Source: an uncultured Caryophanales bacterium (GTDB lineage Bacteria > Bacillota_I > Bacilli_A > RF39 > UBA660). From it: a stretch of DNA of 42,133 bases. This document shows positions 6,822 to 42,133 of this stretch, piece by piece (the stretch's first letter is position 1; each line of letters begins with the position of its first letter). Below the pieces are notes generated by a model that worked only from the letters and a program-made list of their open reading frames with translations, did not search any database and had not been told where the DNA came from. The position numbers were made by a program, and so were the translations under genes. The stretch covers positions 1 to 42,133 of the forward strand of contig CANOBK010000013.1 in the NCBI GenBank assembly GCA_947564265.1. The letters run 5' to 3'.

Positions 6822-7835
6822 ATGGCAAAGGCAGAGAATAATACAAATAAGGATATGGCTTTAGAGAAAGTATTAGGAGATATTGAAAAACAATTTGGAA
6901 AAGGGGCTATCATGAAACTTGGAGATAACAAGCATTTAGAATTAGATGTAACACCAAGTGGAAGTTTATCTCTTGATATCGCACTGGGAGTTGGTGGATA
7001 TCCTAAGGGTAGAATTATAGAAATCTATGGACCAGAATCAAGCGGTAAGACAACGTTTGCTCTGCATGCGATTGCGGAGGTTCAAAAACGAGGAGGAAGA
7101 GCAGCTTTCATTGATGCAGAACATGCATTAGATCCAGTGTATGCGAAGAATTTAGGAGTTGATATCAACGAATTACTACTTGCACAACCGGATACAGGAG
7201 AACAAGCTCTTGAAATTTGTGAGGCACTTGTTCGTAGTGAAGCTGTTAGTATCGTCGTAATCGATAGTGTTGCGGCACTAGTACCGCAAGCAGAAATCGA
7301 CGGAGATATGGGGGATGCTCATGTTGGACTCCAAGCAAGGTTGATGAGTCAAGCACTTCGTAAACTTTCTGGTACCATTAATAAAACCAAAACAACGGCA
7401 ATCTTTATTAATCAATTAAGAGAAAAAGTAGGCATTATGTTTGGAAATCCAGAAACAACACCAGGAGGAAGAGCCCTGAAGTTCTATGCTAGTATTCGAC
7501 TTGATGTTCGTCGTAGTGAAGCACTAAAAATGGGAGATGGAATCGTCGGTAATAAGACAACTGTCAAAGTTGTTAAAAATAAAGTGGCTCCTCCATTTAA
7601 AACAGCAGTGGTTGATATCATGTATGGAGAAGGGGTATCACACGAAGGAGAACTAATCGATTTAGCCAGCGACTGTGGTGTTTTAGAGAAGAGTGGTGCT
7701 TGGTATTCATATCAAGGAGAAAAAATCGGACAAGGAAAAGAAAACGTGAAATTATTCCTAAAGGATCACAAAGAAATCACAGCCGATATCGAAGCAAAAG
7801 TTCGTTCTTACTATGCAATTGAAGAGAAAAAATAG
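6822..7835 (+). CDS. recA: Recombinase RecA
   Basis: ATP-dependent strand-exchange protein and SOS co-protease, 337 aa. The Walker A GPESSGKT is at residues 70-77, and the V-V-I-D-S-V-A-A-L Walker B, the L1/L2 DNA-binding loops (the latter around G-N-P-E-T-T-P-G-G) and the C-terminal domain are all present. The C-terminus ends in a short Glu/Lys tail, so the long acidic tail of some RecAs is lacking. A strong AGGAGG-type site precedes ATG. The gene has its own promoter with a possible SOS box and its own terminator, so it is monocistronic. Confidence 0.99.
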
Positions 7836-7856
7836 AGTAGAATTTTAATAATCACT

Positions 7857-7883
7857 GAGAAGAAAATTTATCTTCTCTTTTTT
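7857..7883 (+). terminator. recA terminator
   Basis: GAGAAGA/TCTTCTC stem (7857-7863 with 7871-7877), seven-base loop, then a T-run. Confidence 0.85.
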
Positions 7884-7884
7884 A

Positions 7885-7913
7885 TTGTCATCTTCCTGTT
7901 CTAATGGTATTCT
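7885..7913 (+). promoter_or_regulatory. Promoter of the ABC transporter pair
   Basis: TTGTCA (7885-7890), a 17-bp spacer and TATTCT (7908-7913) with a TGg extended -10. Confidence 0.6.
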
Positions 7914-7938
7914 ATAAATATAATAGGAGTGAGTGAAA

Positions 7939-8661
7939 ATGAAAGTATTGGAAGCTGCTGGAATTAGTAAAAAATTCGGTAAAAATGAAGTTTTACATTC
8001 CATCAATATTTCCTTAGAAGAAGGAGAAATTGTCGGTTTTGTTGGTCCAAATGGAGCTGGAAAATCTACCTTTATTAAATCTATTTTAGGACTTTATCAT
8101 ATCGATAGTGGATCCATCAAAATCTGTGATTTTGACGTACAAAAAGATTTTGAAAATGCTTTAAGAAATGTTGGATGTATTATAGAAAATCCAGACTTGT
8201 ATGATAATATTTCTGGAAGAAAAAATTTAAAAATTGCCTCCTTAATGTATGGATTAAAAAAGAACCAGAAAAGTATGGAGACCATTATTAAACTAGTAAA
8301 ATTAGAAAATAGAATTGATGATAAAGTAAAGAATTATTCTCTTGGAATGAAACAACGCTTAGGACTTGCTCAAGCACTTTTAAATCAACCGAAACTACTA
8401 ATTTTAGATGAACCAACAAATGGATTAGATCCTCTTGGAATTAAAGAATTAAGAAGTATGTTAAAAGAAATCAATAAAGTATATGGAATGACCATTTTTA
8501 TATCAAGTCACATCCTATCTGAAATAGAAAATGTATGTGACCGTATCATTATGATTGATCATGGAGCGATTGTGGAAAATGTTACCATTGATGAAATTAA
8601 AAATAAAAATATAAGTCTAGAAGAAGAATTCTTGAAAAAAACTACGGGAAGTATAGAATAG
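7939..8661 (+). CDS. ABC transporter ATP-binding protein, LanF/BcrA type
   Basis: The 240-aa ATPase has Walker A GPNGAGKST (36-44), the signature S-L-G-M-K-Q, Walker B L-L-I-L-D-E-P-T and the S-S-H switch histidine. Where the Q-loop glutamine is normally found there is Glu83 (I-I-E-N-P-D). That E-loop is known from lantibiotic immunity ATPases (LanF) and the bacitracin-resistance BcrA group. I took ATG 7939 rather than GTG 7933 because the AGGAG site then sits nine bases away. The permease gene follows after eight bases. The natural substrate is unknown; peptide export or self-protection is the family-based guess. Confidence 0.88.
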   Translation: MKVLEAAGISKKFGKNEVLHSINISLEEGEIVGFVGPNGAGKSTFIKSILGLYHIDSGSIKICDFDVQKDFENALRNVGCIIENPDLYDNISGRKNLKIASLMYGLKKNQKSMETIIKLVKLENRIDDKVKNYSLGMKQRLGLAQALLNQPKLLILDEPTNGLDPLGIKELRSMLKEINKVYGMTIFISSHILSEIENVCDRIIMIDHGAIVENVTIDEIKNKNISLEEEFLKKTTGSIE

Positions 8662-8669
8662 GTGATTAT

Positions 8670-10322
8670 ATGAAAATAGTACAATTAGTTCAATGTGAAT
8701 TTATTAAAAATTTTTCTCTTAAAAGATTGATTATTACAGTACTAGTTCTTACTTTATGTTGTTTCGGGCTTATTAAATTTGAAGAGTTTTATAAGGGTAG
8801 TTATTACGATAGTTCTTTATTAGTATCTGAAAAAGAATTTGAAAAACAATATGAAAAAGTAAAAAAAGAATATGCTGATGTAGATAATGTTATTAAAAAG
8901 GGAATTTTTTCTTCTTATGAAGAGATATTATCTAATTATCAATATATCAATAGGGATTTATTAGAGAATGAAAAAAATGATTGGCAAGAAACTGCTTTAT
9001 ATACAATTAAGAATTATGTGCCAAAAAGGGAAGCACTATTTACATTAAAAGAAAATTATCAAAGTTCCACTTTGAAGGAATATTTAGAAACTCATGAAAA
9101 ATATGATAAATCTTATGATTCTTCTGTTTTAACACAGGTATATATTTCTAACTTAAATCGATTTTTTGATTCTAGCCTGGAAGAGTTAGAAAAAGAGTTT
9201 ACTTTTTTAAATTCTCAGATTTCTTTATTAGAAGAAGCACTTCAAAAAGACTTATATTATCTAGTTATTCAGTTTAGTTATAATCAAGCTTTGTTTAATG
9301 CAGAAAAATATGATGTTGAAATTAGTAAGTCAGAGATAGAGTTCTATCAATATGTGATTCAAAATAAATTTTTAGATCCTGATGATTATCGGGTAATAAA
9401 TGCTAGCGAGTACCAATCTCTTTGGTATAGTGAAGAAGAGCGTAGTATTCCAACATTAAAAGAATATAAACAGGGTCTTGTAAATCTAACTTTTAATGGA
9501 TATGAAGCAAGTAAAAGATATAATCTCATTATGAGAGAAGAAGAGACAAAACAAAAATTGATTGTAAAGTATGCCATGAATCATGAAATAAAACATGATG
9601 CATATTTAAAAGGTGATGATATTACTCCTACTTATTTAACATCTAAAAACTTTATGAACTTAGGACTTCATCTTGGTTTGGTAATTATGTTTTTATCAGC
9701 GATTTATCATGCAGGAATTGTTGCCAAAGAGCATGATAAAGGAACCATTAAACTTTTACTAACAAAACCGATTAAAAGGGAAAAAATATTACTTTCTAAA
9801 ATGATATATTTAATTTTAGATACGTATTTATTATGGTTATTAGGTTCATTTATTATGTTTTTGATCGTTGGATTTTATTCTGGATTTGGGGATTTATTTA
9901 CCGCAAAACTAATTATTAGTCATAAAGAAGTGATAGAAGTAAATTATTGGTTATGGTATTTGAAGGAATTATTGATTTGTGGAATTCCTATTTGTTGTTT
10001 CCAAGTGGTACTGTTCAGTCTATCTGCGCTTACTTTAAATACTTCTTTTACCGCTAGTATTATTTCTATTTTAACAGTATTCTCTTTTATGATTTGGGCT
10101 TTAATTTCTCAGTTCGGTCTTACCTTCTTAGACTTTTTAAGTTATACACCAATTCCTTATTTAGATTATTGGTTTGTTCGTTATAATAGTAGAATTTATC
10201 TAGAGGCAGTTGTAAGAAGTAATGTATTTACTGGCTATGGTTTAGTGATTGGAATTGTGGTTGCTGTTTTATTGATGACTATAACACTATTTGTATATAA
10301 GAAAAGAGATATTAAAAACTAG
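8670..10322 (+). CDS. ABC-2 type permease with a large extracytoplasmic insert
   Basis: Membrane partner of the preceding ATPase, 550 aa. One membrane helix lies near the N-terminus (about 17-36). A charged, largely helical region of about 290 residues, probably outside the cell, follows. The C-terminal half has five or six membrane helices. The H-D-K-G-T-I-K-L-L-L-T-K-P-I-K-R segment after the second helix is the typical ABC-2 coupling motif. An AGGTGAT site precedes ATG, eight bases after the ATPase gene. The large external domain is like that of ABC-2 exporters acting on peptides or lipids. The substrate cannot be deduced. Confidence 0.82.
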   Translation: MKIVQLVQCEFIKNFSLKRLIITVLVLTLCCFGLIKFEEFYKGSYYDSSLLVSEKEFEKQYEKVKKEYADVDNVIKKGIFSSYEEILSNYQYINRDLLENEKNDWQETALYTIKNYVPKREALFTLKENYQSSTLKEYLETHEKYDKSYDSSVLTQVYISNLNRFFDSSLEELEKEFTFLNSQISLLEEALQKDLYYLVIQFSYNQALFNAEKYDVEISKSEIEFYQYVIQNKFLDPDDYRVINASEYQSLWYSEEERSIPTLKEYKQGLVNLTFNGYEASKRYNLIMREEETKQKLIVKYAMNHEIKHDAYLKGDDITPTYLTSKNFMNLGLHLGLVIMFLSAIYHAGIVAKEHDKGTIKLLLTKPIKREKILLSKMIYLILDTYLLWLLGSFIMFLIVGFYSGFGDLFTAKLIISHKEVIEVNYWLWYLKELLICGIPICCFQVVLFSLSALTLNTSFTASIISILTVFSFMIWALISQFGLTFLDFLSYTPIPYLDYWFVRYNSRIYLEAVVRSNVFTGYGLVIGIVVAVLLMTITLFVYKKRDIKN

Positions 10323-14064: not shown

Positions 14065-14940
14065 ATGTATAATGAAGAACAAGTATTAGAAAAAGTTTCC
14101 AAAAAGAAACAGAAGAAAATTTTAATTTTCACAATCGCAATTAGTGTTTTCTTTATTATGGTATTTAGTGTAGGAATCTATTTATATTCAGATAATCAGC
14201 CACTCATCGAATTTCCAACCTATAGTTTATCAACGGAACAGTGGACAACGGATGATGTGATTGTAACAATTACCAATGATAGTAGTAAAATTCTATCTTA
14301 TTCTTTTGATGGTGGATTATCTTGGCAATCTAACAACACTTACACAATGAATGAAAATGGAGAAATTACAATTCAAGTAATGGATACAAAAAACAAACTT
14401 AGTAAAAAGACAATTGTCTCAGTTTCTAATATTGATCGTACTCCACCAGAAATGGCATTTGAATCAACGACAACTGTTCAAATGGGAACTTCCTTTTCTG
14501 TAAGAACTGGCGTACAAATTTCTGATAAAGAGTCCGGACTTAGTAATGATTACACAGCAGTCCCTAGTACGATTGATACTACGAAAGAGGGAGAGTATCA
14601 AGTTGTTTATTCTGCCTTTGATCGTGCAGGAAACTTTACAGAAAAATCTAGAACGATTATTGTAAAAGATATTAAAGGAAGAACTTACTATCGTTATCGT
14701 GATGGAAAAATTGAGTCTTACCAATGCGAGCCATATTTGTGTAATTGTGTATCTTCAGCGACTGCTTCTTCTACAGGAACATGTCCAACGGGATATACTT
14801 TAAACGAACAAGGGGAATGCTGTAATGTTTGCTATAAATCATGTTCACGTACGATTTGGGGTCCATGGAGTGAATGGTCTCAAGAAGAAGTCACTGCTAC
14901 TTCTACAAGGGAAGTAGAAACGATGATTAAAGAAGATTAA
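14065..14940 (+). CDS. Membrane-anchored surface protein: Ig-like domains, cysteine cluster and WSEWS motif (paralogue A)
   Basis: This 291-aa protein has a short basic cytoplasmic tail, one membrane helix (about 19-41) and an extracellular part. The first outer domain has S-Y-S-F-D-G-G-L-S-W-Q, as in OmpL47-like Ig folds. The second (after D-R-T-P-P-E) resembles DUF5011-type Ig domains, with G-E-Y-Q-V-V-Y-S-A-F-D-R-A-G-N. Then comes a cluster of about nine cysteines in C-x4-C-x-C ... C-C-x2-C-x3-C spacing, and finally W-G-P-W-S-E-W-S, like a thrombospondin type-1 motif. The next gene is a clear paralogue 18 bases downstream. A surface-adhesion role is possible, but no function is established. 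Confidence 0.85.
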   Translation: MYNEEQVLEKVSKKKQKKILIFTIAISVFFIMVFSVGIYLYSDNQPLIEFPTYSLSTEQWTTDDVIVTITNDSSKILSYSFDGGLSWQSNNTYTMNENGEITIQVMDTKNKLSKKTIVSVSNIDRTPPEMAFESTTTVQMGTSFSVRTGVQISDKESGLSNDYTAVPSTIDTTKEGEYQVVYSAFDRAGNFTEKSRTIIVKDIKGRTYYRYRDGKIESYQCEPYLCNCVSSATASSTGTCPTGYTLNEQGECCNVCYKSCSRTIWGPWSEWSQEEVTATSTREVETMIKED

Positions 14941-14958
14941 AAAGGAATGGGTGGTAAA

Positions 14959-15879
14959 ATGTTAAAGAAAAAAGAGGAGTATATTGGACCTGTAGATCAA
15001 TATGGTCGTCCAATCGATACAACAAATATTCCAGATCGTGCAGAAGATGATCGAAAACTTGGAATGATCTTTTTTACGATTCTTGGAATTGCGACCATTA
15101 TCATACTAGTGTTTATTTTTATATTTAATTATCTTGAGCAGAACCGATTAGAAATACCTAAAGCAACGTTATCCACAACAGAGTGGACAAGTGAATCTGT
15201 TACAGTAACAGTAGATAAAACTAGAGGAAATGTTAGTGAATTTTCCTTTGATGGTGGAAAAACGTGGCAAGAGAGTAATCAATATGAGGTATATACCAAT
15301 CAAGAATTAGTAATTCAAGCTAGAAATAAGAAAGGCAAAACAAGTAAAAAGGCAACCGTGGTAGTTTCCAATATCGATCAGGACTTGCCAGAACTTTACT
15401 TTATTGATCCACTTTATATCGAAACGAATGATGAGTTTGATCCAAGAGTAAATGTTTCAGTTCTGGATAGTGGTTCTGGAATTCAGGATTATGATGTTAA
15501 TTTATCAGGACTTGATGTTCAAACACCTGGAGAATATCCTATTACATATATTGTATCTGATTTGGTAGGAAACAGTATTATGAAAACAAGAAAAATTATT
15601 GTAGAAGAGGGACCTCACAGTTACCAGTATCGTTCTAGAACCTTTCAGTTAATGGATTCTACTTGTGACTCACCTTGTAAATGCACGCCATTAGTAGAAA
15701 ATACTTGTCCAGAAGGGAAAGTTTTACAGGATTTAAAAAATTGTTGTAATATCTGTACAGAACCTTGTCAGGAGTTTCAATATGGAAGATGGTCTGAGTG
15801 GGGTGATGAAAAAATTATTCCTACTTCAGATTTAGAAGTAGAAATGAGAAGTGAACTTCTAGCAGTAATACAAGAATAA
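14959..15879 (+). CDS. Membrane-anchored surface protein: Ig-like domains, cysteine cluster and WSEW motif (paralogue B)
   Basis: Tandem paralogue of the preceding gene with the same plan: cytoplasmic tail with a G-P-V-D-Q-Y-G-R-P-I-D motif, one membrane helix (about 32-54), an Ig-like domain with E-F-S-F-D-G-G-K-T-W-Q, a DUF5011-like domain, a cysteine cluster (S-P-C-K-C ... N-C-C-N-I-C-x3-C) and a final R-W-S-E-W-G. A frame ATG at 14947 is nearly on top of its AAGGA. ATG 14959 with GGGTGGT before it is more likely, giving 306 aa. Co-transcription with paralogue A is likely because the gap is 18 bases. The shared cysteine pattern suggests disulfide bonds outside the cell. Confidence 0.83.
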   Translation: MLKKKEEYIGPVDQYGRPIDTTNIPDRAEDDRKLGMIFFTILGIATIIILVFIFIFNYLEQNRLEIPKATLSTTEWTSESVTVTVDKTRGNVSEFSFDGGKTWQESNQYEVYTNQELVIQARNKKGKTSKKATVVVSNIDQDLPELYFIDPLYIETNDEFDPRVNVSVLDSGSGIQDYDVNLSGLDVQTPGEYPITYIVSDLVGNSIMKTRKIIVEEGPHSYQYRSRTFQLMDSTCDSPCKCTPLVENTCPEGKVLQDLKNCCNICTEPCQEFQYGRWSEWGDEKIIPTSDLEVEMRSELLAVIQE

Positions 15880-32443: not shown

Positions 32444-32475
32444 ATATTTTTGACTCAATATAGGTGGTGTTTAAT

Positions 32476-33441
32476 ATGGAAAATGAAATCCGAAATGATG
32501 GGTATATTGAGTTAGAAAGAATTTTTGAAAAAGACGGATGTACTTTAATTGATCTTGAAGAAATGCCTAAGTATTGGATATTTGAAGAATCTACTATTGG
32601 GGCTTTTTTCTCATATCAGGGAGAGATATGGCTTTTTAAGCCAGAATTCGAATTTTTAAAAAATGCTTCTTATATAGAACTAGTATTAGAGGAACTCGCA
32701 CATGATTTTGGAATTCCTTCAGCTCATTATGACCTCGCTACTTTAAATGGCAAAAAGGGAATTATTACTAAATATTTTAAACAAAAAGATTGCCAGTACA
32801 CTCTTGGTGAAGAATTATTGGAGGATTATGTATATTATGGTTTAAAGATTTCTCAGGATGATTTTTTCACGTTGGATAGTGCTGTGTTAACGCATAATAG
32901 TTTAGAAGGAATTTGGAGAGCACTTGATTATCGTTATCGTAATTTGAAAAATCGTGAGTCCATTGTTTGGCATTTGATGAGTCGTTTAGTAGATATTTTT
33001 ATTTTTGATATTTTAACCCATCAAGAAGATCGCCATTCTAAAAATTGGGGGATTGTAGAATCAAAAGACAAAATTGATATTCAACCGATTTATGATAATG
33101 AGCTAGCATTTAATAATATTAAGGCATTGCCTTCGTTAGTGAGTGAAAGTTTAAAAGAAGAGGAATTGTTTCATTTTTCTCATTACGAACATGCTGTTAA
33201 AGATGTACTATTGGAGTTTTTAGAAGTATCAGGAGGTAGATATTTAGAAAAACTTCAAGAGAAACTCCCTTTAATTCAAAATGAGAATATTGTATCTGTT
33301 CTTTCTAGAGTAGAGAATAGAATTGGATGCGAAATTCCGCAAGATGTGAAGAGTTATATTCAGAATTGCTTTTCAAATATTGTTTTAGAAACGACAGAAA
33401 CGATAAAGGAATATAAGGAAAGTTTAAAGATAAATCATTAA
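32476..33441 (+). CDS. HipA-like kinase-fold protein
   Basis: A 321-aa protein resembling the HipA C-terminal kinase domain. Near 50 it has W-L-F-K-P, where Lys would bind ATP. Near 175 it has F-D-I-L-T-H-Q-E-D-R-H-S-K-N-W-G, similar to the N-x-D-R-H-x2-N catalytic loop of HipA, although the first Asn is replaced. I-Y-D-N-E-L-A-F may be the metal-binding loop. No HipB-like partner is adjacent, so toxin-antitoxin function is unsupported. ATG 32476 has AGGTGGT; two GTG codons upstream are less likely. It sits between pcrA and ligA. Confidence 0.7.
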   Translation: MENEIRNDGYIELERIFEKDGCTLIDLEEMPKYWIFEESTIGAFFSYQGEIWLFKPEFEFLKNASYIELVLEELAHDFGIPSAHYDLATLNGKKGIITKYFKQKDCQYTLGEELLEDYVYYGLKISQDDFFTLDSAVLTHNSLEGIWRALDYRYRNLKNRESIVWHLMSRLVDIFIFDILTHQEDRHSKNWGIVESKDKIDIQPIYDNELAFNNIKALPSLVSESLKEEELFHFSHYEHAVKDVLLEFLEVSGGRYLEKLQEKLPLIQNENIVSVLSRVENRIGCEIPQDVKSYIQNCFSNIVLETTETIKEYKESLKINH

Positions 33442-35436
<1,995 letters not shown>

Positions 35437-35488
35437 AAATTTTCACTACGAACGAAATATAGTGCTTGTAGAAAATTGTAAAATAAAC

Positions 35489-35516
35489 TTGTAATCATAG
35501 AAATATATGTTATACT
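35489..35516 (+). promoter_or_regulatory. Promoter before the XRE gene and leader hairpin
   Basis: TTGTAA (35489-35494), a 16-bp spacer and TATACT (35511-35516) with TGt extension. The predicted start site lies directly before the hairpin at 35525. Confidence 0.6.
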
Positions 35517-35524
35517 GAATTTGT

Positions 35525-35570
35525 AAAGGGCTAGTAGAGACTTTATTGTTTTTACTAGTCCTTTTTCTTT
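35525..35570 (+). terminator. Terminator or attenuator hairpin in the XRE leader
   Basis: A 12-bp stem (35525-35536 with 35553-35564, one G-U) followed by a T-rich run. It can end ligA transcription, and it also lies between the promoter at 35489 and the XRE gene. Confidence 0.7.
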
Positions 35571-35592
35571 GAAAGTAGTGGAGGGTATGGAT

Positions 35593-35826
35593 ATGAATGA
35601 GAAAAAAATTGGAAAATTTATTGCAGAACGGCGTAAGGAAATGGGATATACACAAGATCATTTGGGAAGATTGCTAGGGATATCTGGAAAGGTGGTTTCT
35701 AAGTGGGAAACTGGAACATGTTTGCCAGACATTTTACTATTAAATGATCTTAGCAAATTATTAAGAGTGACAACAACGGAGTTATTAGAAGCTAAAGATA
35801 GAGAAGATGAAACTATAAAACAATAG
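35593..35826 (+). CDS. Small XRE-family regulator (77 aa)
   Basis: Almost the whole protein is a helix-turn-helix domain: F-I-A-E-R-R-K-E-M-G-Y-T-Q-D-H-L-G-R-L-L-G-I-S-G-K-V-V-S-K-W-E-T-G, a canonical Cro/CI-type XRE sequence, followed by L-P-D-I-L-L-L-N-D-L-S. GGAGGG lies seven bases before ATG 35593; ATG 35587 is closer but less likely. It lies just upstream of the secreted-protein/ABC cluster on the same strand and may regulate it, though a terminator separates them. Confidence 0.85.
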   Translation: MNEKKIGKFIAERRKEMGYTQDHLGRLLGISGKVVSKWETGTCLPDILLLNDLSKLLRVTTTELLEAKDREDETIKQ

Positions 35827-35832
35827 GAAAAA

Positions 35833-35855
35833 TCGCCAAATTTGCGACTTTTTTT
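35833..35855 (+). terminator. Terminator after the XRE gene
   Basis: TCGC (35833-35836) pairs with GCGA (35844-35847), then a T-run; a short stem. Confidence 0.6.
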
Positions 35856-35867
35856 GCTATAAAAATA

Positions 35868-35896
35868 ATGACAATATATTTTAATTTTGCTACAAT
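35868..35896 (+). promoter_or_regulatory. Promoter of the secreted-protein/ABC cluster
   Basis: ATGACA (35868-35873), a 17-bp spacer and TACAAT (35891-35896) with TGc extension. A leader of about 105 nt follows before the first start codon. Confidence 0.7.
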
Positions 35897-35939
35897 GAAG
35901 TCACAAATAGTTAACAACCTGATGTTTGATTTATTAACG

Positions 35940-35982
35940 ATAATAACAATATTACAAGTGCGCATAGTGATAATGTTATTAT
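35940..35982 (+). promoter_or_regulatory. Long leader hairpin in the 5' UTR of the secreted-protein gene
   Basis: Positions 35940-35955 pair with 35967-35982 over 16 positions (one mismatch, one G-U) around an 11-base loop. No T-run follows and the AGGAGG site lies 12 bases downstream, so it is not a terminator. mRNA stabilisation or regulation of translation is possible. Confidence 0.6.
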
Positions 35983-36006
35983 AAATATATTTTTAGGAGG
36001 ATATTT

Positions 36007-36405
36007 ATGAAGAGAAAAATGAATCGTCTTTTGGTATTTTCAATATTTACGATTGTTGGTTCTATATTCTTTATGAGTACGGTAGATGCAACTATAGTAA
36101 ATATATCAGCAAAAGTTCCCTCATTCCAGCAATATGGATATGTAAGGCAAGCTGAGAAAAGTAAAAACGGTAAGGAGGCAGCTGTAGATCTTTGGGTAAT
36201 GCAAAATGAAGCAGTAACATTTAGTGTCAAATCAGTGGGTGATGGTACATATGGACGGGGTACCACAGTGAAATATGTTGACGTAGCCTATACCATTAAC
36301 TATTCTAAAGAGTATGCAAAAGGAGAGCAAGTTCAGGCGCGTTATAGAAATCACAACTGGACACCTAATTCTGGACAAATGGATGGATACTTTGATTATC
36401 AGTAA
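36007..36405 (+). CDS. Secreted small protein, candidate bacteriocin-like product
   Basis: The 132-aa precursor has a Sec signal peptide: basic start M-K-R-K-M-N-R, hydrophobic core and a V-D-A cleavage site after residue 28. The mature ~104 residues have no cysteine and look beta-rich, with T-Y-G-R-G-T-T-V-K-Y, R-N-H-N-W-T-P-N-S-G and a terminal D-G-Y-F-D-Y-Q. The plan (secreted beta protein, then a dedicated multi-permease ABC transporter) resembles lactococcin-972 and DUF2712-type loci, but I cannot claim family membership. AGGAGG stands six bases before ATG. A perfect 12-bp hairpin follows the stop, which would favour higher levels of this first gene's mRNA. Confidence 0.75.
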   Translation: MKRKMNRLLVFSIFTIVGSIFFMSTVDATIVNISAKVPSFQQYGYVRQAEKSKNGKEAAVDLWVMQNEAVTFSVKSVGDGTYGRGTTVKYVDVAYTINYSKEYAKGEQVQARYRNHNWTPNSGQMDGYFDYQ

Positions 36406-36434
36406 AATATGAGCCCAGTATTTGGGCTCATATT
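36406..36434 (+). terminator. Intercistronic hairpin (partial terminator or mRNA stabiliser)
   Basis: Perfect 12-bp stem (36406-36417 with 36423-36434) and a five-base loop directly after the secreted-protein stop. No T-run follows and the next gene starts at 36453, so read-through or 3' protection is more likely than full termination. Confidence 0.6.
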
Positions 36435-36452
36435 AAATTGAAAGGAAAGAAA

Positions 36453-37262
36453 ATGAAAGAATTAAAATTTAACCTAAAACTTTTAATTTATAGAAAAGAA
36501 TTTTATTTTGCCACTTTCGTTATATTTTTAGTAAATATTATTCAATGTTTTATGGCAGTTCAGTATAGCAGTGGTTTAAATCTATTAGCAGAAAATGGAT
36601 ATTCAGCGGAATACCAAACTATATTATATAACAATATGGTGTCCTTAAATTCTATTATAATTATTGTGTTTCCAATTGTATGTGCGACAATTTTTTCGGA
36701 TTCCTCTTGGTTAGAAGAAAAAAATAAAACATTTAATATTTTATATTCAAGATTAAATATAAAAAAAAATAACCTAATTCGTTATATATTATCGTTTCTT
36801 ATTCCGTTTATAATTTGCTTTCTTGGGTTTATGCTTAATTATGGAATGATGCGTTTAATTTTTCCAAGTGGAACCTTATCAACATTTTATAATGATGTGA
36901 GTTTTTATTTAATTTCTGGTAGTGAATTCTTAGATAATTTAAGACTTGAAAATCCAGTTCATTATATTATTTCAATCATATCTGTTGTTTCACTAGCTAT
37001 AGGACTTCTTTCCAGTCTATCTTACTCCTTCTCAATATTTTTCAAAAAAAGAGTATTAATTTATTTTATACCACTACTTGCAATAATTTCATTAGAACTT
37101 ATTACAGCGGGTTATAATTTTGGAAACATATCATTTCTAAAACTATTACAACCTACATCACATATCTCTATGAGGGAAGTATTAATTATTAGTACAAATA
37201 CAGTTTTAATAGGGTTATCGATAGTATATATTAAAGGAAAACAAAAAAATCATATAATATAA
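36453..37262 (+). CDS. Six-pass ABC-2-like membrane protein
   Basis: The 269-aa protein shows six membrane helices (near 17-38, 66-86, 112-138, 175-200, 208-230, 242-262). After the second helix comes a charged E-E-K-N-K-T-F-N-I-L-Y-S-R segment, like the cytosolic coupling region of ABC-2 permeases. It starts at ATG 36453 with AAGGAA before it (a TTG at 36438 is also open). It lies behind the intercistronic hairpin and probably belongs to the same transporter as the ATPase at 39452. Confidence 0.75.
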   Translation: MKELKFNLKLLIYRKEFYFATFVIFLVNIIQCFMAVQYSSGLNLLAENGYSAEYQTILYNNMVSLNSIIIIVFPIVCATIFSDSSWLEEKNKTFNILYSRLNIKKNNLIRYILSFLIPFIICFLGFMLNYGMMRLIFPSGTLSTFYNDVSFYLISGSEFLDNLRLENPVHYIISIISVVSLAIGLLSSLSYSFSIFFKKRVLIYFIPLLAIISLELITAGYNFGNISFLKLLQPTSHISMREVLIISTNTVLIGLSIVYIKGKQKNHII

Positions 37263-37329
37263 AAGATATTTATGATACTAATAAAATCTTTGCACTAGAC
37301 AAAGAAGGATAGTAGGTGAAGTTAAATTT

Positions 37330-38019
37330 ATGAAAATGCTAATAAGATTTATAATTATGTTTACCATTCTTTTGACCTTATCAATAACTGCCATTATCTA
37401 TGGAAGAATAGAAATAAAACATATCGATTATGAAAATTATATAGAAAATAGTAAATATGCTGTTTCTATTGTTGGTCAGTACCTTTATGAAAATTATCCA
37501 GAGTTAAAAAGCGTTATTATACCAAATAAAATGATAGATTCAATAGATGATCTAGTAAAGAATTCGGAGGCTGTACTTGTTATTGAGGTAAAAGAAAATC
37601 CAATTATTCACGGAAGTGGTATTCTTAATAACTGTATTATAAAAAAAATAATTAAAGGAGAAAATTTAAAATTAAATGAAATAATTCAAGTATATGACCT
37701 AACGGCACACACACAAGCTGATGTAACTTTATACATAGATAACACTACACCATTAAAAAAGAATGAACCATATTTAGTTTTTTTAAACAAGGCGCCACGA
37801 CCGTCTATTAAAGGAACATATGTATTTTCTAACGCAGAATTCGGTCATATTCGATTAAATGGCAAAAAAAATTATTTAAAAGACTATGAAAATTATTCTA
37901 TAACTATGAAAGATATTCTTCAATATGACTATGTATTTTTGAAAGAAAGTTATAAATCCGAAGATATTGAGAAATATGAAAGAATTGCTGAAGAGGCACT
38001 AAATTTATTAAATAAGTAA
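37330..38019 (+). CDS. Membrane-anchored extracytoplasmic protein
   Basis: A 229-aa protein with one N-terminal hydrophobic segment (about 5-23), which may be a signal anchor, and no lipobox cysteine. The outer part has V-K-N-S-E-A-V-L-V-I-E-V-K-E, K-K-I-I-K-G-E-N-L-K-L, P-L-K-K-N-E-P-Y-L-V-F-L and G-H-I-R-L. This pattern recalls small secreted beta domains of unknown function found in many Firmicutes. Its place between permease genes suggests an accessory to the transporter or an immunity factor. I could not name a family. AGGTGA lies about 10 bases before ATG. Confidence 0.7.
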   Translation: MKMLIRFIIMFTILLTLSITAIIYGRIEIKHIDYENYIENSKYAVSIVGQYLYENYPELKSVIIPNKMIDSIDDLVKNSEAVLVIEVKENPIIHGSGILNNCIIKKIIKGENLKLNEIIQVYDLTAHTQADVTLYIDNTTPLKKNEPYLVFLNKAPRPSIKGTYVFSNAEFGHIRLNGKKNYLKDYENYSITMKDILQYDYVFLKESYKSEDIEKYERIAEEALNLLNK

Positions 38020-38099
38020 AATATACTTTTTACTTAAGAAATAATAAAAATTAACTGAATGATGAAATAATAGAAGAAAAATATAATAGGAGATGTAGT

Positions 38100-38810
38100 A
38101 TGAAAAAATTAAAATTGAATTTCATAAAAAAGATATTCAGCAACTTTACACTTTTTCTTTGCATTCTATTTCCATTATTTTTAGGGTATATCATAGGTAA
38201 TGATATAAATAATGAATTTATGAAATTATATATATCTAAATTTTCTGTAATTCCTATTCGATATTCAATTTTGATCTTTCTTGTTTTTATAGATTATCAA
38301 ATTTTTGCATCACTTAATTATACCAGTATTATCTTTAGAAATAAATCTATGCTTTCCTATTTTATTAATTCAATAGTGAAAAGTTTAAAATATATTATTC
38401 TGTTTTTTATCATGCTAAATACCCCAGTATTTATCATAAATAGTAAACAATTTATCTCTAATTTATCAACAATTTTACTTTTTATTTTAAATGATATTGT
38501 AGTACTAGTTCTACTAATTAGTGTGATTCGATTGATAGACTCTAAAATAAAGAAAAGGATATTATCTAGTTGCTTATTTATCAGTACTTTTACCATTTTA
38601 GACTTTATTTTAGACAATTATAATTTTTATTACTTTGATAATATAGCGTTTAGTTTTAATTATATCTTTACCTTACCCTCAGTTTATGAATCTTATATAT
38701 TTATTCTACTCTTGTTGATTGGACTAATTATATTAATGATTATACTTTCTATAAAATTTATGGAGAAAGGAGATTATATGCTAAATGAAAAAAGCGATGA
38801 AGAAAATTAA
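38100..38810 (+). CDS. Six-pass membrane protein of the ABC cluster
   Basis: A 236-aa very hydrophobic protein with six membrane helices and little loop sequence; rich in Ile, Phe and Leu. It contains F-R-N-K-S-M-L-S-Y-F between helices 2 and 3, similar in place to the coupling segment of bacteriocin-type permeases (DUF2705 group). AGGAGAT precedes ATG. Its last codons overlap the next gene by 26 bases, so the two membrane proteins are probably made together and may form a heterodimer. Confidence 0.75.
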   Translation: MKKLKLNFIKKIFSNFTLFLCILFPLFLGYIIGNDINNEFMKLYISKFSVIPIRYSILIFLVFIDYQIFASLNYTSIIFRNKSMLSYFINSIVKSLKYIILFFIMLNTPVFIINSKQFISNLSTILLFILNDIVVLVLLISVIRLIDSKIKKRILSSCLFISTFTILDFILDNYNFYYFDNIAFSFNYIFTLPSVYESYIFILLLLIGLIILMIILSIKFMEKGDYMLNEKSDEEN

Positions 38811-39462
38811 AATTAAAAGTATTATCTTAATTCTAATTTTAATTGTAGCTGTTTTTGTATTAAAATCTCCTTATATTGATTCATTGTATGAGGGAGAATA
38901 TATTAATTTTATTAGGCAAATATTGTTTAAACAGGGAGATAATCTAATAGCAAATGTATTTTGGTTGTTTCCAATTGTTGGTAGTTTATTTGTAATATCT
39001 AACTATAGTTATAATCAACTAATTAATTTTAATACTAGATACAAAAATAGAAGAATTTATATAAAAAAGGTTTTGTTTCAAACTATTATTTATTCACTAC
39101 TATTCCATGCTTTTTTTGCCATACTTGAAATTGTTGTTTTTTCAAAATCTTATGGAATTCAATTTGGTTTAAAGATTATGAATGTTATTTTACAATACGC
39201 AATAGAGAATACCTTTTTGAGCTTACTAGTAATTTGTATTTCGTTCGTAGTTAAAAAATATATTTATAGTTATACATCGATTTTAACTGTGCTAATAATT
39301 CTATTAAACATTCCAAAATTGTATGGGAGATGGATACCGTTTGTTAGTTTCAATTATGTAAATTCTATTAATATAATTACAGTTACTAGTTGTGTAGTAG
39401 TGACTTTTATAATATATAAACTATATTTACATTGTGATATTGGAGGTAATTATGAAAATTGA
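38785..39462 (+). CDS. Six-pass membrane protein of the ABC cluster (second half of permease pair)
   Basis: A 225-aa protein with a basic N-terminus and six membrane helices. N-T-R-Y-K-N-R-R-I-Y-I-K-K-V lies between helices 2 and 3, a typical cytosolic coupling motif of DUF2705/YydJ-like permeases. It overlaps the preceding gene by 26 bases and the ATPase gene by 11, a tight arrangement supporting one complex. An AAGGAGA site lies 11 bases upstream of the ATG used. Confidence 0.75.
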   Translation: MKKAMKKIKIKSIILILILIVAVFVLKSPYIDSLYEGEYINFIRQILFKQGDNLIANVFWLFPIVGSLFVISNYSYNQLINFNTRYKNRRIYIKKVLFQTIIYSLLFHAFFAILEIVVFSKSYGIQFGLKIMNVILQYAIENTFLSLLVICISFVVKKYIYSYTSILTVLIILLNIPKLYGRWIPFVSFNYVNSINIITVTSCVVVTFIIYKLYLHCDIGGNYEN

Positions 39463-40093
39463 GTTAGTAAATTATAACAAGAAAATAGGAAAAAAGAGGA
39501 TATTATGCGATATTAATTTAAAATTAACTGGTGGAAATGTATATGGTTTTTATGGCAGAAATGGTTCTGGAAAGACAATGCTATTTCGTGCAATATCAAC
39601 TTTAATATATCCAACTTCTGGGGATGTAAAAATAGATGATGTATCAATCATTCATGAGGATTTTGATTTAAGAAATATTGGAATACTATTAGAAAATCCA
39701 GGATTTTATCCATATTTAACTGGATTAGAAAATCTTGAATTATTGTACACAATTAACAATAGGAAAAATGATGAACATATTATTTCTTGGATGAAAAAAA
39801 TAGGCTTAGAAGAATATAAAGATATGAAGTATAAAGAATATTCCTTAGGAATGAAACAAAAACTTAGAATTTTACAAGCAATTATGGAAAATCAACAAAT
39901 TATTCTTTTAGATGAGCCGACAAATGCGCTTGATGAGAAGAGTATATTAATAGTTCGAGATATTATCAAAGAACTAAAGAAGGAAGGCAAACTTATTCTT
40001 TTGGCTAGTCATAATAAAGAAGATTTGAAAATATTGTGTGATAAAATATATAATATTGAGGAAGGCTCTATTGTAGGTGAAATAAAGTTATAA
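39452..40093 (+). CDS. ABC transporter ATP-binding protein with E-loop
   Basis: A 213-aa ATPase with Walker A G-R-N-G-S-G-K-T (35-42), signature S-L-G-M-K-Q (131-136), Walker B I-I-L-L-D-E-P and switch A-S-H-N. At the Q-loop position it has Glu81 (L-L-E-N-P-G), as in LanF/BcrA-type ATPases linked to bacteriocin immunity. The frame is open to GTG 39434, but GGAGG before ATG 39452 sets the start. It energises the three membrane proteins encoded before it. The substrate is probably related to the secreted protein at 36007, by context only. Confidence 0.88.
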   Translation: MKIELVNYNKKIGKKRILCDINLKLTGGNVYGFYGRNGSGKTMLFRAISTLIYPTSGDVKIDDVSIIHEDFDLRNIGILLENPGFYPYLTGLENLELLYTINNRKNDEHIISWMKKIGLEEYKDMKYKEYSLGMKQKLRILQAIMENQQIILLDEPTNALDEKSILIVRDIIKELKKEGKLILLASHNKEDLKILCDKIYNIEEGSIVGEIKL

Positions 40094-40230
40094 GAATAAA
40101 AAATTAATTGATCATAATTGAATATATTTATAGTCTTTTTCGAAATTAATATTAAAAATGAATGTTAATCAGATTCTGAAGTTAAATTTAAAATGTTTAG
40201 TAATTTCATATATGAGTCTAGTATTATACG

Positions 40231-40239
40231 TGATATAAT
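40231..40239 (+). promoter_or_regulatory. Extended -10 promoter before the Nudix gene
   Basis: TGa-TATAAT (TATAAT 40234-40239), 20 bases before ATG; no clear -35. The gap 40094-40230 is AT-rich with nothing else recognised. Confidence 0.45.
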
Positions 40240-40258
40240 AAAAAAGAGGTGTTCAATT

Positions 40259-40858
40259 ATGGAAATAAAAAAAGAAGAAGAACTAAAAGAACTTGCTGAA
40301 AAACTTAAGAAAATGCCTTATTCTGAGTTTGTAGAAATTGTAAAAAATCTAACAGAAGAAGAAATTTTATTAGTTAGTAGAACGATTGGATATCCAGTAT
40401 TTATTCGTCTTTGTATGGGAGAACTTGCTCATACTATTCCTATATTGCAGGATGGTGCAGCTGCCATTATCGTTGATGAGAATGGAAGAATTCTTTTACA
40501 AAGTCGTGCTGATAGAAACAAGTGGGGTCTTCCTGGTGGATGTCAGGAAGCAGGTGAAAGTTTTGAAGAAGTTGTCATTCGTGAAATAAAAGAAGAAACA
40601 AATTTAGATGTAAAAGAGGAAGATTTAGAATTTATATGCACAATCTCTGGAAAATCTAGAAAAAATTCTTATTCAACGGGTGATATTGTCTACAATAATA
40701 CGGCGTTATATTGTATAAGAAGATATTCTGGAGAATTAAAATGGAATAGTGAATCAAAAGAAATGAGATTTTTTGAAGATGACAATTTGCCAGAAAATCA
40801 AAATGATCCAGATTTAATAGAATGCTATAAGACATGGGCTAAAAGTAAGAAAATATAA
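40259..40858 (+). CDS. Nudix hydrolase
   Basis: A 199-aa protein with the Nudix box G-C-Q-E-A-G-E-x7-R-E-I-K-E-E-T (G-x5-E-x7-R-E-U-x-E-E), which cleaves nucleoside-diphosphate-linked substrates. A ~60-residue helical N-terminal extension precedes the Nudix fold. The beta strand after it has W-G-L-P-G-G. ATG 40259 follows an AGAGGTG site; the frame extends 22 codons upstream through the promoter. ASCH gene follows after 27 bases. Substrate unknown. Confidence 0.88.
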   Translation: MEIKKEEELKELAEKLKKMPYSEFVEIVKNLTEEEILLVSRTIGYPVFIRLCMGELAHTIPILQDGAAAIIVDENGRILLQSRADRNKWGLPGGCQEAGESFEEVVIREIKEETNLDVKEEDLEFICTISGKSRKNSYSTGDIVYNNTALYCIRRYSGELKWNSESKEMRFFEDDNLPENQNDPDLIECYKTWAKSKKI

Positions 40859-40885: not shown

Positions 40886-41281
40886 ATGAAAGTTATAACC
40901 ATAAAACAACCATTTGCTTCTTTAATCGCAGAGGGGTTAAAAGAATATGAATTCAGAACTTGGAAAACGAAATATAGGGGAGAAATCTTAATTCATGCAG
41001 GTAAGGTTATTGATAAAAAAGCAATGAAAAAATTTGAAAAATATAATTTAAATTATCCAAGCGGTTGTATCATTGCGAAAGTTAATTTAACAGATTGTAT
41101 TAAAATTGATGATAAAGCAAGAAAAATGTTAGAAGAAAAAAATCCATTGATTTATTCTAGTATTATAAAACATACAGAGTGGGATGGATATGGCTTTCAA
41201 TTAGAAGATGTCAAAAAAATAGAGCCAATTTATATCAATGGTAAATTAAGTCTCTGGGATTATGATTATAAAGAATCATAA
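40886..41281 (+). CDS. ASCH-domain protein
   Basis: A 131-aa protein with the ASCH fold signature: K-Q-P-F-A-S-L-I-A-E-G-L-K-E-Y-E-F-R-T-W near the start and G-E-I-L-I-H-A-G-K, followed by G-C-I-I-A-K-V. ASCH domains are beta-barrels related to PUA, thought to bind RNA or modified nucleotides. It lies directly after a Nudix gene, so a nucleotide-related job is plausible. Only a weak GGAAAG ribosome site is seen. Confidence 0.85.
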   Translation: MKVITIKQPFASLIAEGLKEYEFRTWKTKYRGEILIHAGKVIDKKAMKKFEKYNLNYPSGCIIAKVNLTDCIKIDDKARKMLEEKNPLIYSSIIKHTEWDGYGFQLEDVKKIEPIYINGKLSLWDYDYKES

Positions 41282-41397: not shown

Positions 41398-42133
41398 TTA
41401 GTTTAATTTTTTAACAGAAAGTGTTGCATTTACTCCTGTACCTAAAGTAACCCCAACAGCTAGTAGAGCAGATATAGCCATGTCAATTACGTCACCAGCT
41501 GCTAATGTCACAATTGTGCTACCACTGTAAATAGAACCAACTCCAACGGATAACACCCTTGAAACTTCTGTACTAGGAATGTTCGTACCATTAATTCTTA
41601 CTGCCTGTGTTACTGTGGTTCCAAGTGCTACAGAAACATTACTGAAATAGTTAATTTCATAAGTTCCCGCTTCTGTAACAGTAATGCTATTTGCAGGTGT
41701 ATAAGTTGCATTTAGATTTGGCATTGCCGTTGGAAGTGGAATTTGTGATGGAGTTCCAATCGTAAGGTTTAATGTTTGAGGTGTATCGCTATATTTTCCA
41801 GCATAAGCATCGAGTCCAGCGGCAGGTCCCGTAGGTCCCGTAGGCCCAGTGGCTCCATCTAGTCCAGCAGCACCAGCAATACCTTGAGGCCCAGTAGGTC
41901 CTGTAGGTCCAGTGGGTCCAGTCGCACCGAGTAATCCTTGAGGTCCAGTAGGTCCAGTAGGTCCAGTTGCCCCATCCAGTCCAGCAGCACCAGCAATACC
42001 TTGAGGTCCTGTAGGTCCTGTAGGTCCAACAACAGTACTAGCAGGTCCAGTAGGCCCAGTGGCACCAGTTAATCCTTGAGGCCCAGTAGGTCCAGTCGCA
42101 CCGAGTAATCCTTGAGGTCCGATTGGTCCAGTA
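41398..42133 (-). CDS. BclA-like collagen-repeat surface protein, 5' partial
   Basis: The frame is open from the window edge to TAA at 41398; the C-terminal 244 residues are present. First come Gly-X-Y repeats of the G-P-T-G-P-T and [10 protein letters not shown] type. Then a linker [10 protein letters not shown] and a C-terminal ~130-residue domain with G-T-Y-E-I-N-Y and A-G-D-V-I-D-M-A-I, as in the BclA C-terminal (TNF/C1q-like) domain. Such proteins are trimeric surface filaments, known from Bacillus exosporium but also from non-spore surfaces. An ATG at 41724 falls inside the domain and is not the true start. Signal sequence and full repeat count are outside the window. Confidence 0.88.
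41822..42133 (-). repeat. Collagen-coding imperfect tandem repeats
   Basis: GGNCCN-type nine-base Gly-X-Y units. A higher-order block coding [14 protein letters not shown] recurs 117 bp (13 triplets) apart, seen at 41861 and 41978. Copies are imperfect. The array runs past the window end. Confidence 0.85.

Follow-up and report, generated by a model that had tools for sequence, protein, structure and literature searches.

Introduction

Does the run of six genes that follows ligA in an uncultured Caryophanales bacterium (RF39, UBA660) encode a bacteriocin together with the means to survive it? The run lies on contig CANOBK010000013.1 of assembly GCA_947564265.1, of which positions 1 to 42,133 (the window, 42,133 nucleotides in all) were analysed, and encodes, in this order, a secreted protein (sec), an ATP-binding cassette (ABC) permease-like protein (P1), a membrane-anchored outer protein (out), two further membrane proteins (P2 and P3) and an ABC ATPase (ATP). 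All six open reading frames (ORFs) are complete and intact at the positions that a first-pass annotation, made from the sequence alone, had given them. Its proposal of an undescribed bacteriocin-type production and immunity cluster has held up as the best reading, and the gene set recurs as a module. The locus is rather probably a horizontally moving bacteriocin-type module, in which the Sec-exported product of sec is accompanied by an immunity transporter resembling LanFEG and by a surface protein of TIMP/NTR-like type. The more specific claim, that it represents an undescribed class of Sec-exported, unmodified bacteriocins, mobile in uncultured Bacilli and remote relatives and equipped with an E-loop immunity transporter of three permeases and a membrane-anchored protein of TIMP/NTR fold that neutralises the bacteriocin at the cell surface, is put forward tentatively, as plausible and not quite probable. 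We infer both the antibacterial activity of sec, whatever its target, and the immunity role of its neighbours, the latter because of the gene order and the loss of sec from loci that retain the transporter.

Recurrence of the module in related genomes

A scan of named genomes revealed 11 further loci in metagenome-assembled genomes recorded as Bacilli, Tenericutes, Bacillales or Bacillota, six of which lie on the same contigs as matches of an order-level search. Across the 12 loci that include the window, P1, P3, ATP and out were each found 12 times, P2 11 times and sec nine times; these counts include locus L031, in which ATP is split into two ORFs and out is cut by the contig end, and the sec copy of L029, which is interrupted near its start. 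P2 homologues are thus present in 10 of the 11 other loci and P3 homologues in all 11. Rare co-occurrence of the genes had been named in the first-pass annotation as the outcome that would speak against a cluster, and the genes instead recur together in this set. The order sec-P1-P2-P3-ATP-out is shared by eight loci, with a 4 nt overlap of P1 and P2 in all eight and a 4 nt overlap of ATP and out in five of the seven measured. P1 pairwise identity among eight six-gene loci is 37–75 %.

The distribution is patchy. A two-row P1 profile (E-value up to 0.001) matched 8 of 385 order-level genomes, namely the genome of the window, six others strongly and G200 weakly (E 5.6e-4 over 52 residues), and gave no match in the 11 other same-genus genomes listed. 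The flanks differ between loci and, as judged from translations rather than profile searches, include Ffh/flotillin-like genes in L022, the ftsA-ftsZ region in L026 and L032 and a penicillin-binding protein in L031, while recombinase and FtsK-like genes surround the module of the L028/L029 type. L028 and L029 share 7.09 kb at 99.6 % identity and are binned in different genera, which points to transfer but may also reflect mis-binning or assembly error. Plasmids yielded no match to sec, P1, or the out and secreted proteins of the remote genome G462 described below, and none of 102 pattern matches to P1 in viral contigs was confirmed.

Insertion and rearrangement of the window copy

The ligA gene is present in all 11 same-genus genomes searched, 10 of which carry other ORFs after it. 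In the remaining one, G292, a NUDIX gene (67 % identical) begins 65 bp past ligA and is followed by a collagen-like gene, and this junction, unlike that of the window, contains neither the six genes nor the helix-turn-helix (HTH) or ASCH genes found here. Because ligA and NUDIX adjoin in G292 without the cluster, positions 35437–40258 are best read, from this comparison of sequences, as an insertion of about 4.8 kb. The position of the HTH gene within the inserted segment suggests a link to the cluster, of which it may be a regulator. The region had been described as AT-richer than its neighbours, and the base composition confirms this: the G+C content is 25.4 % in 35437–40215 against 31.6 % in 1–35436, and 22.7 % in 38001–40000, whereas no 2-kb window tested in the first 35 kb falls under 26.5 %. 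Since all eight relatives measured likewise show a higher AT content in the cluster than elsewhere in the locus (by only 0.4 points in L045), part of this AT-richness is intrinsic to the genes.

The window departs from the common gene order in the position of out. The 67 nt between P1 and out encode a worn ABC ATPase tail with one frame change, which scores 31.1 with a profile of eight tails, the window's own included, compared with −1.4 ± 5.4 in dinucleotide shuffles, 0 of 2000 of which reach that score. Most canonical loci have the end of ATP running into the start of out; the order seen in the window is therefore probably the product of a duplication or recombination and a later deletion. 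Of the several overlaps attributed to the cluster, those of P2 with P3 and of P3 with ATP are real, while P1, out and P2 do not overlap one another.

A promoter-like site does precede sec (Table 1), as had been claimed; its strength is not established, and with 51 sites of the ATGACA-17-TACAAT type in 35400–40400, against 41 ± 5.8 expected, the site density is not clearly above chance.

Table 1. Coordinates of the six cluster genes and associated features in the window
Feature	Position	Strand	Description	Evidence
sec	36007..36405	+	secreted 132-aa cysteine-free protein, proposed bacteriocin	
P1	36453..37262	+	ABC permease-like, 6 hydrophobic segments	
out	37330..38019	+	one N-terminal membrane helix plus outer domain; proposed surface immunity protein	
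P2	38100..38810	+	six-pass membrane protein	
P3	38785..39462	+	five- or six-pass membrane protein	
ATP	39452..40093	+	E-loop ABC ATPase, BcrA/DrrA/LanF-like	Pfam ABC_tran 1.7e-27
HTH gene	35593..35826	+	77 aa, Cro/CI-type helix-turn-helix, possible regulator	Pfam HTH_3 2.1e-9
terminator-like hairpin, ligA to HTH gene	35525..35564	+	17-pair stem, then T-rich tail	
candidate sec promoter	35868..35896	+	ATGACA-17-TACAAT, TG before −10	10/12 consensus positions
stem-loop between sec and P1	36406..36434	+	12 bp stem, 5 nt loop, without T-run	z −5.65
degenerate ABC ATPase tail upstream of out	37263..37329	+		frame-tolerant profile score

The secreted protein

The product of sec was correctly described as secreted and cysteine-free: it has a single hydrophobic segment, at a signal-like N-terminus, and no cysteine. 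Homologues lie immediately upstream of P1 in eight other loci, one of them broken near its start, and seven of the nine sec proteins counted lack cysteine (those of L022 and L024 have two each). The window protein matches no Pfam or NCBIfam family, and a search of the PDB by sequence returned two matches, both with E above 1. Used as a single query against 193 family genomes, sec found its own genome and matches in two others (E 2e-3 to 8e-3). Of these matches, L003 proved on viewing not to be sec-like; L002 has internal stops and L004 lies inside a 405-aa frame. A sec profile matched its own genome and, weakly and partially, G466 among 395 class genomes, and only its own among 34 order genomes.

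The gap between sec and P1 holds a long hairpin in six of eight sec-bearing loci (the window and five of seven relatives; z −2.99 to −6.00) and is unremarkable in L023 (z −0.94) and L026 (z −0.43). These stem-loops occupy the same place and have different sequences between loci. They may cause partial termination or protect the 3′ end of the sec message.

The sec gene is the expendable part of the module, lost or broken in some relatives that keep the transporter. L026 and L032 are syntenic, and where the former has sec the latter has a deleted remnant, with P1-P2-P3-ATP-out intact at 80–93 % identity; the interrupted sec of L029 lies within the stretch nearly identical to L028. This pattern resembles the pneumococcal scb locus, a lactococcin-972-type operon with a demonstrated bacteriocin, where strains without the bacteriocin gene are reported to retain the predicted immunity and transport genes (PMC11796350).

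The transporter and the outer protein

By hydropathy count, P1 and P2 of the window have six hydrophobic segments each and P3, a five- or six-pass protein, has five. The membrane-anchored outer protein was recognised correctly, with one segment in out. Five relatives agree (P1 6, P2 5–6, P3 5–6, out 1). P2 and P3 share a faint profile similarity (hhalign probability 24 %, E 8e-4). The E-loop also stands: ATP carries glutamate at the Q-loop position (LLENPGF), as do all 15 module-type ATPases examined. Only ATP and the HTH protein, among the latter and the six cluster proteins, pass a Pfam cut-off; P1 and out reach Pfam matches below cut-off only (E 0.05–0.76), and sec, P1, P2, P3 and out of the window have no NCBIfam match at E up to 1. 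The best NCBIfam match of ATP is TIGR01188 drrA (145.6 bits, under the cut-off of 312). PADLOC returned ATPase-type matches and one match of P1 to a 4TM effector at E 0.068.

The AlphaFold2 model of out is confident (predicted local distance difference test score, pLDDT, 87.5) and places a membrane helix before an outer domain. Its best 50 of 417 PDB fold matches (E up to 10) are agrin NtA, TIMPs, chains of complement C3/C4/C5 and cobra venom factor, the PCOLCE NTR domain and the ComEC OB domain. All are weak, the best having E 2.7e-3 at about 10 % identity and none reaching E 0.001. The complement matches appear to fall on the NTR (C345C) domain, and the outer domain is predicted from the model to adopt a TIMP/NTR-like OB fold. 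A PDB sequence search with out gave no match. The lipobox pattern is absent from the first 36 residues of 10 out homologues, and the N-terminus of the window protein lacks cysteine.

A remote form in other families

An 11-row P1 profile, run against 395 class genomes, matched five genomes of other families in addition to its own and one spurious match. In G462, genes for a secreted 145-aa protein, P1, P2, a P3-like protein, ATP and out stand in the usual order; P2 is weak (E 0.0034) and the P3-like protein is recognised by position only. A ten-row out profile matched proteins of G462, G595 and G702 (E 1e-11 to 7e-10), and a 13-row out profile matched 9 of 392 phylum genomes, the genome of the window included. 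All five strong matches beyond that genome (G462, G595, G702, G725 and G531; E below 1e-15) lie beside an ATPase, and the stretch also holds a P1-like gene in each case. The 13-row profile already held the proteins of G462, G595 and G725, and that of G702 is near-identical to that of G595; G531 is the one clearly independent case of that search. Weak out matches in G892, G543 and G097 (E 1e-4 to 3e-4) were set aside, as they are not beside the ABC set.

In G531 a short degenerate ORF before P1 has, by eye, an end that resembles the secreted protein of G462. For G470, where P1-like, permease and ATPase genes are present, out gave no match and no sec-like ORF was seen ahead of P1, and in L042–L044 the transporter is present and no sec-like ORF was recognised by eye before P1. 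A P1-profile match in G439 (E 2.5e-4) has internal stops.

Upstream of the G462 module lie a LytTR-type regulator, a sensor-like protein (by eye), AgrD (48.1 bits, cut-off 19), an AgrB-like gene (E 1.3e-12, below cut-off) and a lactococcin-972-like operon. The first gene of that operon matches TIGR01653 at E 4e-7 (30.2 bits, just under the cut-off of 32.1), and its partners match bact_immun_7tm (217 bits, cut-off 189) and the L_ocin_972_ABC ATPase (280 bits, cut-off 255). The island (L045/L047) also contains transposase-like genes and a repeated AgrB gene fragment between its parts, and the sensor-like gene is seemingly interrupted by transposase-like genes.

Comparison with known systems and proposed mechanism

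LanFEG transporters remove lantibiotics from the producer membrane, the E-loop is a feature of LanF-type ATPases, and LanI lipoproteins provide surface immunity. The module shares with LanFEG/LanI and CprABC-type systems an E-loop-type ATPase, several six-pass permeases together, and an extra membrane-attached outer protein, all in one unit. It differs from LanFEG, which has two six-pass permeases, LanE and LanG, in having three dissimilar membrane proteins with 5–6 segments that reach no family. It differs from LanI in that out is anchored by a transmembrane segment, lacks a lipobox and has an NTR/TIMP-like domain. The likeness to LanFEG seen in the first-pass annotation is thus borne out by the E-loop and not by family score, since ATP reaches 143.1 bits with TIGR03740 (gallidermin-type protection ATPase), far under its cut-off of 309.75. 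No lanthipeptide genes were recognised near the cluster, where no profile search was aimed at them. A literature search joining the E-loop with lantibiotic, ABC transporter and immunity returned nothing on topic by title and abstract.

Lactococcin-972-type operons (TIGR01653/TIGR01654 DUF1430/TIGR03608; streptococcin B, mediterrocin) similarly place the gene for a Sec-secreted, unmodified protein ahead of those for dedicated membrane proteins and an ABC ATPase. In contrast to them, sec has no family match, ATP scores 105.6 bits against the TIGR03608 cut-off of 254.85, and no match to the seven-transmembrane DUF1430/TIGR01654 partner was found in P1, P2, P3 or out of the window. The suggested resemblance therefore survives as a neighbourhood in one remote genome, G462, and fails as family membership. 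A resemblance to DUF2712/DUF2705 loci was not upheld, as neither is among the family matches of the scanned proteins; no paper on DUF2705 or DUF2712 was found. ABC-2 drug and peptide exporters of the DrrAB/BcrAB type resemble the module through ATP, which is closest to TIGR01188, below cut-off; to these the module adds three permeases, a secreted protein and an outer protein in one unit. The TIMP/NTR (netrin-like) domains share the predicted fold of the outer domain of out, although animal proteins make up most of the matches, along with the ComEC OB domain, and protease inhibition by out has no support. To our knowledge, the TIMP/NTR fold is not known in bacteriocin immunity, and no literature linking netrin with bacteriocin and immunity protein was found.

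The mechanism proposed here has its closest functioning model in LanI together with LanFEG. The sec protein would leave the cell through the Sec pathway by its own signal peptide and would act outside on related bacteria as an unmodified, probably beta-sheet antibacterial protein, while the stem-loop after sec would keep its message more abundant than that of the transporter. P1, P2, P3 and the E-loop ATPase would form an ABC-2-type transporter that clears sec from the membrane of the producer, and out, anchored in the membrane, would bind or block sec at the surface, in a LanI-like part. A precedent for the first step is mediterrocin, a Sec-signal-bearing, sequence-divergent protein that reportedly serves a gut bacterium as a bacteriocin (PMC12345188), and S. 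mutans NsrFE1E2G-X provides one for a single ATPase working with three permeases (PMC5786555).

Weighing the alternatives

Several observations weigh against a bacteriocin module. None of the eight sec proteins scanned reaches a known bacteriocin family, and one of the eight weakly matches a peptidoglycan-esterase N-terminal domain (Pfam Ape1_N, E 0.0024). Past residue 30, sec is near neutral (net −4 to +4). Its mean pairwise identity of 34 % is close to the 33 % of P2 and P3, so that it is not the fastest-diverging protein overall; in the closest pair, L028/L030, sec identity is the lowest (47.6 % against 61.5–83.6 %). Three of the 12 loci (L025, L031 and L032) lack sec beside P1, and its decay would fit a non-antimicrobial secreted protein too. 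The E-loop is not specific to the module, as the window ATPase at 7933–8661 also has the Q-loop glutamate. The window copy is rearranged, and its coupling may be incomplete. The G462 secreted protein is only weakly like sec (hhalign probability 20 %), and the Agr and lactococcin-972 context is known from that one genome.

The alternative that best withstands these data is a resistance module of the CprABC/NsrFEG type directed against the antimicrobial peptides of others, in which sec would serve as a secreted decoy or binding protein and out as a shield in the membrane, with no killing by the producer. The NsrFE1E2G-X set of S. mutans likewise combines a single ATPase with three permeases, and includes an additional gene, X (PMC5786555). 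The transporter occurs without sec in the three loci just named and in L042–L044, and a LytTR-type regulator lies near L043/L044. We nevertheless consider this explanation unlikely: sec is linked to the module in 9 of 12 loci, where it leads the unit and mostly has a stem-loop behind it, a decoy should have been retained along with the transporter, and no two-component genes were seen directly beside the canonical loci among the ORFs viewed by eye.

It is quite unlikely, too, that sec acts in signalling or as a secreted protein of the cell surface, such as a contact or colonisation factor, with a transporter that exports or recycles a connected small molecule or lipid. Such a role would suit the failure to match any known antibacterial family, the esterase-domain match of one member, and a beta-rich sec model that resembles Ig-like sandwiches at a pLDDT of 55, too poor for fold assignment. 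The patchy distribution (8 of 385 order-level genomes, one weak, and 0 of 11 others listed from the same genus), the mobile context and the loss of sec with the transporter kept are all better suited to competition genes.

That sec is a divergent lactococcin-972 family member with its sequence similarity lost is very improbable: it is secreted, about 100 aa long after the signal and predicted to be beta-rich, the G462 module lies near a lactococcin-972-type operon, and mediterrocin reportedly retains the predicted fold despite 18 % identity (PMC12345188), but TIGR01653 is matched by 0 of 8 sec proteins at E up to 1 (with filters that drop most matches above 0.1) while the G462 control matches at 4e-7, comparing the sec profile with the lactococcin-972-like protein of G462 gives no signal (probability 0.7 %), the window has no DUF1430 partner, and lactococcin 972 is not among the best 50 of 958 fold matches of a sec model too poor to decide.

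Neighbouring genes

Other genes of the window and of related loci may be mentioned briefly. A weak likeness to the junction of ATPase tail and out start at 40176–40215, past the true end of ATP, is maybe another trace of rearrangement. Further on, after NUDIX, an ASCH-domain gene (40886–41281) may be a second acquisition; in G292 (L061) the stretch from NUDIX to the collagen-like gene holds no homologue of it. The minus strand at 41398–42132 encodes a collagen-repeat protein with a BclA C-terminal domain (Pfam 8.4e-16), and G292 has a collagen-like gene at the same place. Before ligA, at 32464–33441, lies a gene for a HipA_C-domain protein (Pfam 2.5e-10), divergent relatives of which (25–34 % identity) precede ligA in 6 of 11 same-genus genomes. 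A second ABC-2 transporter, at 7933–10322, consists of an ATPase with Q-loop glutamate and a large permease, and two tandem membrane proteins of similar architecture with cysteine-rich ends are encoded at 14065–15879, the first of them bearing an Ig-like surface domain (Pfam 6.3e-10).

Among relatives, the module repeatedly has other secreted proteins, about 250 aa long, in its vicinity (L022 6402–9441, L017 3078–4672, L019 2550–3299), with HTH proteins in L022 and L017; the two L022 proteins scanned, at 7599–8351 and 8445–8720, reach no Pfam or NCBIfam family. A membrane protein of 435–461 aa follows out in L026 (10960–12279), L018 (3640–4947) and L025 (6852–8237), the likeness being judged by eye, and those of L026 and L025 reached no family in the scan.

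Implications

No bacteriocin made by RF39 is evident from titles among the matches listed for 'RF39' with 'bacteriocin'. If the bacteriocin reading of the module is true, uncultured small-genome Bacilli would be a new source of antibacterial proteins, and three families of membrane proteins and one of outer proteins, which bear no Pfam or NCBIfam name here, would gain a function.

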